From Niabella drilacis (lineage in GTDB: Bacteria > Bacteroidota > Bacteroidia > Chitinophagales > Chitinophagaceae), in contig NZ_FMZO01000003.1 in NCBI RefSeq assembly GCF_900101395.1, positions 392,074 through 456,073 on the forward strand: a stretch of 64,000 bases of DNA, written 5' to 3'. Below are positions 40,562 through 45,148 of this stretch, one piece after another. A model generated the notes under the pieces. It was given only the letters and a program-made list of their open reading frames with translations. It was not told the DNA's origin and made no database searches. The position numbers were made by a program, and so were the translations under genes. The number at the start of each line of letters is the position of its first letter. Positions within the stretch are counted from its first letter, which is position 1.

Positions 40562-41962
40562 ATGGAAAAGAACACACTACGTATGGTAACGGCTGCTTCG
40601 TTGTTCGACGGGCATGATGCCGCGATCAATATTATGCGGCGGATCTTACAGTCGAAGGGCGTGGAGATCATCCACCTGGGACATAACCGTGGGGTACAGG
40701 AGATCGTAGAATGCGCTATTGAAGAAGATGCACATGCCATTGCCATTACCAGCTACCAGGGCGGTCATATGGAGTTTTTCCGGTATATGAAGGACCTGCT
40801 GGACGAAGCGGGATGTGGTCATATAAAGATCTTTGGCGGTGGCGGCGGCACGATCCTGCCACAGGAGATCGAAGCGTTGCATGCCTATGGTATCGCAAAG
40901 ATCTACAGCCCGGATGATGGCCGGAAACTGGGACTGGAGGGAATGATCGAGGACCTGGTCCGCATCGCCTGTTCGGAAGTTTCAGTTGCGGCCTTTAACA
41001 ATGCACCGGAGAACTGGAAGGGGGCTCCACCCCTGGGTGAAAAGAAAGAGATCCGGTCAATAGCCCGCACCATTACACTTGCAGAGGCAGAAATCAGCGA
41101 AAACAGACAGGCTCCGGTTTCGCATGCGGATGCTAAAGTGCCGGTAGTAGGCATCACCGGTACCGGTGGCGCCGGAAAATCATCTGTGACGGATGAACTG
41201 GTCCGCCGTTTTTTGAACGGGTATCCGGAAAAAACGATCGCTGTTATTTCGGTTGATCCTTCCAGGAAAAAGACCGGCGGTGCCTTATTGGGCGACCGGA
41301 TCCGGATGAATGCTATTGCACATCCAAGAGCCTATATGCGTTCGATGGCTACCCGTGATGATCATGTAGCATTAAGCCGCTCCATTCAGAAGGCGCTGGA
41401 TGTTTGTAAGGCTGCTGCTTTTGACCTGATCATTTTGGAAAGTGCAGGCGTTGGACAAAGTGATGCTTCCATTGTTGATTATGTAGATGTGAGTATGTAT
41501 GTAATGACACCGGAGTATGGGGCAGCCTCCCAGCTGGAAAAGATCAATATGCTGGACTATGCGGATCTGGTCTGTATAAATAAGTTTGATAAAGCCGGTG
41601 CTGCAGATGCATTGATGGAGGTAAGAAAACAATACAAAAGAAACCACCAGTTGTGGACCGCGAACGATGAAGACCTGCCGGTCACCGGCACCATCGCAGC
41701 CAAATTTAATGACCCGGGGGTGAACACCTTGTTCTTACAGATGATCCGGATGCTGAACAAAAAATGTAAGGCGGCGTTTGATGAAACAGTTTCTTTCCGG
41801 GATACGGCGCCCATGGAGCGATCGATCATCCCGGGGAAGAGGATTCGTTACCTGTCTGATATTTCGGAATCGGTCCGCAACTACAATCGCTATGTAAAAG
41901 AGCAGGCAGACATCGCCACGAAGTTATACCAGTTAAATGGTGTAATTAAAATGTATGAATAA
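40562..41962 (+). CDS. N-terminal half of an IcmF-type acyl-CoA mutase (B12 + MeaI GTPase domains)
   Basis: This 466-residue protein has a cobalamin-binding domain (about 1-140, FDGHDAA at 15-21) and a MeaB/MeaI-type G-protein chaperone domain with P-loop GTGGAGKSS (200-208) and NKFD (340-343). Its last residues are the helix SESVRNYNRYVKEQADIATK plus a short tail. In IcmF (isobutyryl-CoA mutase fused) these domains continue in the same chain into the mutase domain. Here the chain stops at 41962 and the mutase part follows as a separate gene at 43175, after an inserted nuclease gene. All motifs of this half are intact, so a two-subunit enzyme is possible. Confidence 0.88.
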   Translation: MEKNTLRMVTAASLFDGHDAAINIMRRILQSKGVEIIHLGHNRGVQEIVECAIEEDAHAIAITSYQGGHMEFFRYMKDLLDEAGCGHIKIFGGGGGTILPQEIEALHAYGIAKIYSPDDGRKLGLEGMIEDLVRIACSEVSVAAFNNAPENWKGAPPLGEKKEIRSIARTITLAEAEISENRQAPVSHADAKVPVVGITGTGGAGKSSVTDELVRRFLNGYPEKTIAVISVDPSRKKTGGALLGDRIRMNAIAHPRAYMRSMATRDDHVALSRSIQKALDVCKAAAFDLIILESAGVGQSDASIVDYVDVSMYVMTPEYGAASQLEKINMLDYADLVCINKFDKAGAADALMEVRKQYKRNHQLWTANDEDLPVTGTIAAKFNDPGVNTLFLQMIRMLNKKCKAAFDETVSFRDTAPMERSIIPGKRIRYLSDISESVRNYNRYVKEQADIATKLYQLNGVIKMYE

Positions 41963-43169
41963 CCTAAAAATAGAATCTATGAAAGCAATTACGAGACCCT
42001 ACAAAAAATGGCTGGGCACTTTAAAAGAAGAGATAGCGCAAAGCCGGTTGCAAACTGCGCTTACAGTAAACAAGAACATGTTGTTACTATACTGGTTTCT
42101 TGGACGCCAGATCATTGAAAAAATTGACGGAGAGGATTGGGGGGCAAAAGTGATCGATCAATTGTCGGTCGATCTTCAGTCGGGGTTCCCCGATATGCGG
42201 GGTTTTTCTGTAAGGAACCTGCTTTATATGAAACAGTTTGCTGCAGTATACCCCGATCTGTTAATTACGCAACAGCCTGTTGCGCAATTACGAACCTCTC
42301 GTAGTTCTGGCAGAGCCGCAGCCAAAAAGACGGTAAAAAAAGAGAAAAAGTCTTTGATTCCTGAATTTACGCAACAGCCTGTTGCGCAATTTGATGGTGT
42401 AAGTTATTTCCTCTCAAACCCTTTGCTGATCGGTATTCCCTGGGGGCATCATACCTATTTGATCGATAAGATCAGTAATGAGCAGGAACGTTTATGGTAC
42501 ATTCAAAAAACAGTGGCACACAACTGGAGCAGGGCCTTGCTGCAATACCAATTGAGCACCGATCTGTATTTAAGACAGCATAAGAGAAAAAAGACCTCCA
42601 ACTTTCATTTAACGCTGCCCAAGCCCCAGGCAGACCTGGCCAACCAGATCCTTAAAGATCCTTACATTTTCCGGTTCCCTCAAATAAGTGAATTTGCTAC
42701 TGAACGACAATTGGAAGAGCACCTGCTGCTGCATATCCGGGATTTTCTCCTGGAACTGGGGGCAGGGTTTGCATTTGTGGGCAGACAGGTGATTTTAAAG
42801 GGGACGAAAAAAGATTATTTTGCAGACCTGCTCTTTTATCACTTGCTCCTGCGTTGTTTTGTGGTGATCGATCTGAAGATGGAGTCCTTTGAACTGGAAC
42901 ACACCGGAAAAATGAACGGCTATCTGAATATCGTAAATAAGCAATTTAAACAGGAGTCGGATCGGCCTTCAATAGGAATTATACTTTGCGGGTCTAAAGA
43001 CAATATGGAAGTTGATTTTGCATTGGCAGGGATCAATCAGCCGATCGGGGTATGTGAATATACATTCAGCAAGGCATTACCCAGGACGTTAAAGAACAGG
43101 TTGCCGACGGCTAAACAGTTACAGGATGAGGTAAAAGTATTTTATAAAAAATTAAATACCGGAAAATAA
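41955..43169 (+). CDS. DUF1016 / YhcG-type PDDEXK nuclease-domain protein
   Basis: This 404-residue protein has the YhcG N-terminal domain ([50 protein letters not shown]). The C-terminal PD-(D/E)xK core has [22 protein letters not shown] (Asp and DxK), then [25 protein letters not shown]1016 proteins are often found in mobile or restriction-linked settings. The segment TQQPVAQ occurs twice, 34 residues apart. The start overlaps the IcmF N-half stop by 8 bp (41979 is an alternative ATG), and the stop is 5 bp before the mutase start. It is foreign to the mutase in function and breaks the enzyme exactly at its linker. Confidence 0.88.
42268..42386 (+). repeat. Duplicated 17-bp palindrome inside the DUF1016 gene
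   Basis: CGCAACAGCCTGTTGCG (8-bp arms around one base) occurs at 42268-42284 and again at 42370-42386, 102 bp (34 codons) apart and in frame. Flanking bases also match (TTACGCAA and GCGCAATT). The intervening residues are Ser/Lys/Arg-rich. Confidence 0.8.
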
Positions 43170-43174
43170 ATCGG

Positions 43175-45148
43175 ATGGCACAAAAATTATCTGTTAAAGA
43201 AACACTGGAAGCAACATATCAGCTGCTGCAAAAACAGCAGGATCCCCGTTGCAGGGAACTGGTGGATGAATGGCCGGAACTGAAAAAGAAATATGAAAAA
43301 GATCTTTTTGAATTTACGGTCCGTGACCGTACGATCCGCCTGCCGCTTACGGTGACCTCATTGAGCGGAACAGGCATCCGGAAGATCGCATTACCTCAAT
43401 ACAAGGATTGGGGGGATTTGCTGAAGTGGCAGTTGCAGGAGAATGTGCCCGGTAAGTTTCCTTTTACAGCCGGTGTATTTGATCTGAAGCGGGAAGGGGA
43501 GGACCCCACCCGGATGTTTGCAGGGGAAGGCTGCCCGGAGCGGACCAATAAACGGTTCCACTATGTAAGCGCCGATGCCCCGGCCAAGCGGCTCAGCACC
43601 GCGTTTGACAGTGTAACGCTTTATGGTGAAGACCCGGGGCACCGGCCGGATATCTATGGAAAGATCGGTAACAGTGGGGTGAGCATTGCAACGGTGGATG
43701 ATGCAAAAAAATTGTACAGTGGTTTTGATCTCTGTGATCCTGCTACTTCGGTTTCGATGACCATTAACGGTCCGGCGCCGGTCCTGCTGGCTTTTTTCCT
43801 GAATGCAGCGATAGACCAGCAATGTGAAAAATATATTACAGCGCACCAGCTGTGGGATAAGGCAGACGCTGTACGCAGGGAAAAATTTGAGAACGGTCGG
43901 CCTCCGCAATATCGTAACCCGCTGGCCCCGCAGGGGCTGCCGGAAGGCCATAACGGCCTGGGACTCCGGTTGCTGGGGCTCAGTGGAAGGAAGGTGCTGG
44001 ACACCGAAGTATATACCGCCATCAGGGCCGATGCCTTAATGAAGGTAAGAGGTACTGTACAGGCAGATATACTAAAGGAAGATCAGGCGCAGAATACCTG
44101 TATTTTTTCTACAGAGTTTGCATTAAAACTGATGGGAGATGTACAGGAGTATTTTATTCAGAATAAAGTTAGAAATTTTTACAGTGTCAGCATCAGCGGG
44201 TATCATATTGCAGAAGCAGGCGCCAACCCGGTAACACAGTTGGCGTTCACACTGGCCAACGGGTTTACCTATGTGGAATATTACCTGAGCAGGGGAATGC
44301 ATATTGACGATTTTGCCCCCAGTTTGTCTTTCTTCTTCAGCAACGGGATGGACCCCGAGTATAGTGTAATTGGCCGGGTAGCGCGCCGCATCTGGGCTAA
44401 GGCGATCAAAAATATCTACAAAGGGAATGAACGCTCGCAGAAGCTGAAATACCATATACAAACATCGGGGCGCAGCCTGCATGCACAGGAGATCGATTTT
44501 AATGATATCCGCACTACTTTACAGGCTCTGTATGCTATTTATGATAATTGCAACTCCCTTCATACCAATGCCTATGATGAGGCCATCACCACACCTACGG
44601 AAGAGAGTGTACGGCGGGCCATGGCCATCCAGCTGATCATTAACCGCGAGCTGGGAACCGCCCGCTCGGAAAACTTTATACAGGGCAGCTTTGTGATTGA
44701 GGAGCTGACGGATCTTGTTGAAGAAGCTGTACTGGCGGAGTTTGACCGGATCAACGAACGGGGTGGTGTACTGGGCGCTATGGAACGCATGTACCAGCGT
44801 AACAAGATACAGGAGGAAAGCCTGTACTATGAAATGAAGAAGAACGACGGCAGTCTGCCGCTTATTGGAGTGAATACCTTTTTAAATAAGCAGGGGAGTC
44901 CAACGCTTCTTCCGGGTGAAGTGATCCGGAGTACGGAGCCGGAAAAAGAACAGCAAATCGCAAATTTAAACGACTTTCAAAAACGTAATGAAGCTCAGAG
45001 CACCCGGGCATTGTTGAAACTGAAGGACGCTGCGGTTGCGGGGGATAATCTTTTTGAAGTGCTGATGGACTGTGTGGAGACCTGCTCGCTGGGGCAGATA
45101 ACCCATGCTTTATATGAAGTGGGGGGGCAATACAGGCGCAGTATGTAA
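43175..45148 (+). CDS. C-terminal half of an IcmF-type acyl-CoA mutase (mutase domain)
   Basis: This 657-residue protein is the substrate-binding TIM-barrel mutase part of IcmF. It carries [10 protein letters not shown] at its start, [71 protein letters not shown] and [16 protein letters not shown]. It radically interconverts branched acyl-CoA and linear acyl-CoA with adenosylcobalamin bound by the other half. Its N-terminal 25 residues look like part of the inter-domain linker. It has its own ATG; upstream codons stay open in the same frame back to the nuclease stop region (43157). Confidence 0.9.

Follow-up and report, generated by a model that had tools for sequence, protein, structure and literature searches.

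A predicted nuclease gene between the halves of icmF

What is a gene for a predicted nuclease doing in the middle of the gene for a metabolic enzyme, and how did it come to be there? The question is raised by a 64,000-nucleotide stretch of the genome of Niabella drilacis (NCBI RefSeq assembly GCF_900101395.1, contig NZ_FMZO01000003.1, positions 392,074 to 456,073 of the forward strand; hereafter the window, with its first letter as position 1), in which a gene of the DUF1016/YhcG family separates the two halves of icmF, the gene for an enzyme of the isobutyryl-CoA mutase fused (IcmF) type. The reading we favour, at a probability of about one half, is that a narrow lineage of DUF1016 genes is homing-like and that its members entered the icmF linker independently in no fewer than three Chitinophagaceae genera. 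This reading is suggested by the presence of one nuclease lineage in one linker of three genera, by conflict between trees, and by a series of decaying nuclease copies. In what follows G000 is the genome of the window, g1 its genus, and P1 and P2 the N-terminal and C-terminal halves of icmF. The features of the locus, all on the + strand, are:

40562-41962, +, IcmF N-terminal half (B12-binding plus MeaB-type GTPase), 466 amino acids; from the open reading frame, Pfam, NCBIfam and alignment with 4xc6
about 40580-40891, +, B12-binding domain within the first open reading frame (Pfam)
about 41063-41659, +, MeaB-type GTPase domain within the first open reading frame (Pfam)
41936-41959, +, left linker remainder, NGVIKMYE after YQL, between IcmF domains
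41944-41950, +, left AATTAAA, judged a chance match
41955-43169, +, gene for a predicted DUF1016/YhcG nuclease of PD-(D/E)XK type, 404 amino acids; from the open reading frame, Pfam, motif and homologues
about 42021-42575, +, DUF1016_N, within the nuclease gene
about 42645-43106, +, YhcG_C, within the nuclease gene
43150-43156, +, right AATTAAA, inside the C-terminal codons of the nuclease, judged a chance match
43175-45148, +, IcmF C-terminal half, mutase domain (MM_CoA_mutase), 657 amino acids; from the open reading frame, Pfam, NCBIfam and alignment with 8ssl and 4xc6
start of the 43175-45148 frame, +, right linker remainder, the mutase-chain residues before the first conserved W (residue 33)

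The gene order, frame coordinates and domains agree with the initial annotation of this DNA, as do an 8-bp overlap between the open frames of P1 and the nuclease and a 5-bp gap between the nuclease and the mutase gene. The start of the nuclease is uncertain, however: since its homologues begin at a methionine equivalent to position 41979 rather than 41955, and since in G011 the frame opened by the upstream ATG runs into a stop after four codons, the overlap may concern the open frame alone.

For both outer proteins the best NCBIfam match is IcmF, with 640 bits for the first (matched over 2-463) and 1092 bits for the third (best stretch 692-1076), each singly below the 1500-bit cut-off of the model. 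The P1 protein aligns with residues 45-500 of Cupriavidus metallidurans IcmF (4xc6) and the alignment of the mutase chain with IcmF (8ssl/4xc6) begins at residue 530, so that the break falls between the G-protein and mutase domains, which are joined by a linker named in PMC10481361. The B12-binding, MeaB GTPase and mutase domains thus follow one another in the IcmF order, divided between two genes that flank the nuclease gene; a stop, the nuclease gene and a new start take the place of a single polypeptide. Judged by these alignments, this is a split IcmF-type enzyme with a predicted isobutyryl-CoA mutase function.

The inserted gene encodes DUF1016_N and YhcG_C together with the pattern E-D-(E/D)xK, and thus belongs to the DUF1016/YhcG family, described in PMC1189080 and PMC1913061 as predicted PD-(D/E)XK nucleases of unknown function; the catalytic motif follows PMC1189080. 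The pattern is kept in the intact copies found between icmF halves, ending in DLK in G000, G274, G424, G425 and G376, and in ELK in G008. Intact copies are under purifying selection, with an omega of 0.04 for G000 against G008, where dS is near saturation, and 0.08 for G274 against G425.

Fused and split icmF among relatives

In keeping with the initial annotation, an uninterrupted icmF proved to be the usual state. Among the best 80 of 592 icmF loci in genome contigs, 79 show no interruption within the reach of the locus (6 extend to the locus end, and the P1 of L048 is in pieces). The only split locus among these 80, on a contig labelled Candidatus Kapaibacterium (L065:3455-4873), has a gene unrelated to the nuclease in the gap. 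Within the genus of the window 16 of 17 genomes sampled have an icmF match, and icmF is split in nine (G000, G005, G006, G008, G010, G011, G012, G015 and G016). The remaining seven (G002, G003, G004, G007, G009, G013 and G014) are not split by a gene, although in the assemblies of G002, G003, G013 and G014 the mutase region is interrupted by stops or broken frames, with the frame shift of G013 inside the linker.

A scan of 394 genomes of the family found a mutase match in 340. Positions were listed for 150, and splits among the other 190 may go unseen. At 136 of these 150 places there is an open frame of more than 1000 amino acids; ten are splits, in g1, g50 and g4, and four (G114, G324, G331 and G405) are short through contig ends only. 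G046 was excluded for N bases in the gap, and the icmF row of G018 is identical to that of Pseudoflavitalea rhizosphaerae (Chitinophagaceae). Three further splits (G274, G376 and G390) lie among the 190; searching 244 family genomes for the nuclease led to G274, and a second such search, of all 394, to G376.

Genus g50 has icmF in 10 of its 12 genomes, eight split and two fused (G066 and G160). In G274, G424 and G425 a full-length nuclease lies between the halves, in the same three-gene order as in the window; in G390 the nuclease between the halves has lost its LK motif through an in-frame deletion, and G343, G368, G410 and G426 are split with no nuclease. In a third genus, g102, the nuclease of G376 lies between the halves and is frameshifted at its C-terminal end, while G118, G246, G290 and G418 are fused, as judged from open frames and the tree; as for the other three g102 genomes, G324 stops at a contig end and G194 and G352 are among the unlisted places. 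In g4, G141 is split without a nuclease and its genus mate G019 is fused. The arrangement itself is above chance, being conserved in G008 and recurring in two other genera.

Other modes of splitting icmF were seen as well: G042 (L202) has a mutase gene without the B12/GTPase half in the stretch that was fetched, and the mutase genes of G038 and G058 (L203 and L204) carry only about 38 residues of the end of that half.

Decay of the nuclease at the icmF site

Comparison across species reveals intact, shortened, scarred and unsplit states of a single icmF site. In the nine split loci of g1 the nuclease is intact in two (G000 and G008, 75% identical), shortened in three, reduced to a scar in two and traceless in two. 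The shortened copies of G010 (93 amino acids) and G016 (141 amino acids) are in frame, while that of G011 is out of frame. In the G005 scar the first and last nuclease codons are both recognisable (0 of 300 shuffles at either end). In G006 the 3′ end is recognisable (0 of 300 shuffles), and the 5′ end gives a low value with references from g50 (0.003) and no low value with those from the genus of G006 itself (0.5).

With G390 included, the reading frame is kept up to the nuclease stop in three of four shortened copies (G010, G016 and G390) despite the loss of their catalytic core, G011 being the exception; G376, frameshifted near its end, is a fifth damaged copy. In the intact copies that were read, the nuclease stop shares bases with the mutase start or precedes it by no more than 9 nt, and the start of the inserted gene lies near or overlaps the P1 stop. 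Nuclease-free split loci have 25-51 nt from stop to start. Although the cases are few, the kept frame would fit a need to bring ribosomes to the mutase start.

Trees of icmF, rpoB/rpoC and the nuclease

The nine g1 splits form one clade, both in the icmF tree (support 100/100) and with rpoB/rpoC (100/100 and 100). Near the base of this clade rpoB/rpoC give a trichotomy of G012, G008/G016 and the other six genomes, while icmF trees place G012 with G008/G016 (84/83, 93/85 and 88/83). The g1 split clade probably had the nuclease from its origin or close to it.

Between genera, the split genes join different fused relatives: those of g1 join the fused genes of g1 and G160 (99/97), those of g50 join the fused gene of G066 (100/99), and G376 joins the fused genes of g102 (85/97). 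In approximately unbiased (AU) tests, for which smaller sets were used in place of the 59-row icmF tree, a single clade of all 18 split genes was rejected (p 1.8e-5), as were a clade of the 17 g1 and g50 splits (p 0.0004 and 0.0002) and a grouping of G376 with g50 (p 0.0037).

The nucleases group otherwise. In a tree that omitted the short copies of G016 and G010, along with distant or long-branched rows, the seven icmF residents fall into a nine-row clade (100/100) with the copies of G093 and G313. The seven alone as a clade are not rejected (AU p 0.54), and in a 34-row tree with G016 and without G376 and G313 seven residents form one clade (98/91). Across the 394 family genomes, seven nuclease matches combine E ≤ 1e-95 with at least 56% identity; five lie in icmF (G000, G008, G274, G376 and G390) and two elsewhere (G093 and G313). 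One icmF site is thus occupied in diverged hosts by nucleases whose tree conflicts with those of the host genes, a conflict that lies between genera and is old.

Two cases of possible movement were noted. The fused icmF of G160 (L227, genus g50) falls inside the g1 fused genes, contrary to rpoB/rpoC, and is probably a whole-gene transfer. G313, a g50 genome without an icmF match, carries a nuclease (L307:7589-8770) that is 61% identical to the icmF nuclease and may have moved.

A homing-like gene and its alternatives

How might the nuclease have come to lie in the linker? We propose that the gene is mobile, with a preference for this linker, that the predicted nuclease would cut icmF alleles that do not carry it, and that repair would copy the gene in, as happens with a free-standing homing endonuclease. 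With its own start and stop overlapping or nearly touching the ends of the half-genes, the inserted gene would form one operon with them, giving two chains, one with the B12 and GTPase domains and one with the mutase, which would presumably come together again, and neither half would be destroyed. After entry the nuclease would decay, often by in-frame internal deletions that lose the catalytic core and keep the frame toward the mutase start, and the split would persist once the nuclease had decayed. A more specific form of this proposal is possible, though we hold it only tentatively. Here, the DUF1016 PD-(D/E)XK lineage would consist of chromosomal, intron-less homing genes with the icmF linker as their target and at least three invasions behind them. 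As the mutase start would need translation of the inserted frame, these genes would be disarmed mainly by in-frame or near-complete deletion, making the split permanent.

Several findings weigh against the homing-like proposal. A series of 36 shuffle tests gave no convincing nuclease scar in G012, G015, G368, G343, G410, G426 or G141, the lowest values being p 0.04 for the 3′ end of G343, 0.04 for the 5′ end of G141, 0.07 for the 3′ end of G426 and 0.08 for the 5′ end of G410; these nuclease-free loci mean that some splits may precede the nuclease. A single clade of the eight g50 splits is not rejected (AU p 0.137). The icmF trees group g1 with g50 (98/97, and 91/89 in another tree), contrary to rpoB/rpoC, which place the two apart in a quick tree with five rows under half filled. 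Two close nucleases, those of G093 and G313, lie outside icmF. The divergence of the nuclease between g1 and g50 is about equal to that of P1, so that any transfer of the nuclease would be old. Finally, the g102 case, G376, is a draft assembly of 540 contigs with a frameshift at the C-terminal end of the nuclease. At a finer scale the comparison of nuclease with P1 divergence is mixed. Four of six g1-g50 pairs show a nuclease less similar than P1; in the other two, which both involve G425, whose P1 is cut by a contig end, the nuclease is the more similar. Within g50, similarity is greater between nucleases than between P1 halves. There are also hints of an older exchange of the whole icmF gene between g1 and g50.

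The alternative that survives best, and that we regard as a real if minority possibility, is ordinary fission of icmF, with the nuclease settling later in the operon gap and its recurrence reflecting a preference for such gaps. This would account for the traceless splits (two of nine in g1, four of eight in g50, and G141) and for the position of G012 in the trichotomy near the base of the split clade. It is also in line with the location of another DUF1016 lineage between argF and argB, and with the nuclease-free fission of L065, where a different gene fills the gap. It leaves unexplained, however, why the same narrow lineage occupies the same linker in three genera; moreover, the only split g102 genome seen carries the nuclease while four others are fused, and G005 and G006 have demonstrably lost theirs. 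The initial annotation had named separate halves without a nuclease as grounds for rejecting insertion. Such halves do exist (G012, G015, the four in g50 and G141). They count against the claim that the nuclease made the split, yet do not refute insertion: as the nuclease has demonstrably been lost in other genomes, either event may have come first.

Could the nuclease instead be a phage-defence gene, with its position in icmF incidental and recombination in the flanks responsible for its exchange? PADLOC models PDC-S02 match it with up to 425 bits; PDC we take to stand for a candidate phage-defence system. Some relatives, by eye, lie in restriction-modification loci, and purifying selection would suit a defence role. 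We nevertheless think this unlikely, given repeated loss and shortening of the gene and the fact that a single lineage occupies the same site in three genera. Of the neighbours of the nuclease in the window, P1 and P2 were scanned for defence genes, with only a weak mad8 match in the GTPase.

Less favoured again, and in our view improbable, is a single ancient insertion followed by transfer of the split operon and by re-fusion or replacement in the lineages that are now fused. The close kinship of the resident nucleases, the grouping of g1 and g50 icmF (98/97) unlike rpoB/rpoC, and a g1-g50 nuclease divergence near that of P1 would all be expected from such a history; the AU tests speak against it, and it would call for several re-fusions, each restoring a linker of 34-36 residues.

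The initial annotation had proposed a more exact history, in which a cassette made a 7-bp target duplication and its removal restores the ancestral frame. AATTAAA is indeed present at both positions, yet not above chance expectation: a shared 7-mer between the two 60-nt junction stretches was reached in 78% of 400 shuffled pairs, and the junctions of G008, G010, G011 and G016 lack the left copy. Deleting 41951-43156 does give an open frame of 1126 amino acids, a frame match that, as had been acknowledged, has a one-in-three chance. The joint itself differs from the linker of fused relatives, with 43 residues from YQL to the first W, including the stretch YRKINRM, against 34-36 residues in the fused g1 genes measured (G004, G007, G009 and G014). 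Because the fused linkers are shorter and the repeat is expected by chance, the proposed junction, as far as these comparisons go, is not the ancestral one. A target-site duplication with exact frame restoration is thus ruled out by the shuffles and the shorter fused linkers, and the cassette history, despite its open joined frame, is very improbable. What stands is the broader claim that the nuclease gene entered the linker, which is supported by the shares of the linker kept by both halves and by the presence of the same lineage in the same linker of three genera; the exact junction does not.

Relation to known systems

Known homing families are LAGLIDADG, GIY-YIG, HNH, His-Cys and some PD-(D/E)XK enzymes. 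Pfam at E ≤ 0.001 finds only DUF1016_N and YhcG_C in the nuclease, and no known homing family. The closest parallel is mobE of phage Aeh1, a free-standing homing endonuclease gene that splits nrdA, where the split enzyme is reported to be active (PMC2988022). In both cases a free-standing nuclease gene within an enzyme gene yields two polypeptides; mobE, however, is an HNH gene of a phage, whereas the icmF case involves a predicted PD-(D/E)XK gene of the DUF1016 family in bacterial chromosomes of several genera, with activity of the split enzyme presumed. Gene fission is likewise tied to a nuclease gene in phage T4 (mobA and gene 60) and in phage 25 (gene 43), the latter with the same doubt over which came first (PMC2988022), but these are phage replication genes. 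In the mitochondrion of Campsomeris, insertional fission of cox2 took place beside qnu, a putative homing-type nuclease; that insert measures 3 kb, has several frames and lies in an animal mitochondrion (PMC5374615).

Relative to IcmF itself (4xc6; PMC10481361), the B12, G-protein and mutase domains are in the same order and the difference is that there are two chains, with the break falling in the interval 500-530 of the C. metallidurans numbering. The nuclease resembles the YhcG/DUF1016 family (PMC1189080; PADLOC PDC-S02) in domain content and catalytic pattern, and differs in that D replaces E before LK in several icmF residents. In the search listings of openly licensed papers, which were read in part, we found no report of DUF1016 as a homing gene, of DUF1016 splitting a gene, or of a nuclease splitting icmF.

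DUF1016/YhcG genes are common in the genus; a series of states at one site would allow their role to be tested directly, be it selfish homing, defence or a combination of the two. The locus also offers a natural series from fused to multi-subunit enzyme beside a mobile gene in bacterial chromosomes and, with its two-chain IcmF, a chance to separate the chaperone from the mutase. Comparable fission has so far been described in phages (PMC2988022).

Searches of viral contigs, phage records and plasmids yielded no close relative of the nuclease: three stretches of viral contigs matched a pattern, none of them a relative, and the matches in 15 phage records and 466 plasmids all fell below 60% identity. 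Among solved structures, a search by sequence gave a single nuclease match at E 0.15, judged to be chance. A single-sequence structure prediction of its fold was discarded as useless, at a predicted local distance difference test (pLDDT) score of 33.5.

Other DUF1016 genes

A DUF1016/YhcG match is present in 16 of the 17 g1 genomes. One such gene lies outside the window between argF and argB (G000:C21:77454-78593, L214), overlapping argB by 4 bp. This is a different lineage, full length in six of the 17 genomes (G000, G004, G008, G010, G012 and G014), broken in G013, a stub in G011 and without a match in nine. The icmF site is therefore not alone in being a fixed operon position that is occupied in some genomes only. 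At the arg site the nuclease of G012 is 83.9% identical to that of G000, and that of G010 84.1%, as against 76.4% and 89.9% for argB, which is suggestive of nuclease exchange, few sites having been compared. No second gene split around a DUF1016 gene was seen in 32 loci read, of which only four, icmF among them, had neighbours called on both sides. Judged by eye, the DUF1016 genes of L208, L209 and L210 sit within restriction-modification-like operons, and those of L174, L179 and L183 lie directly behind tyrosine-recombinase-like genes, recognised by their C-termini.

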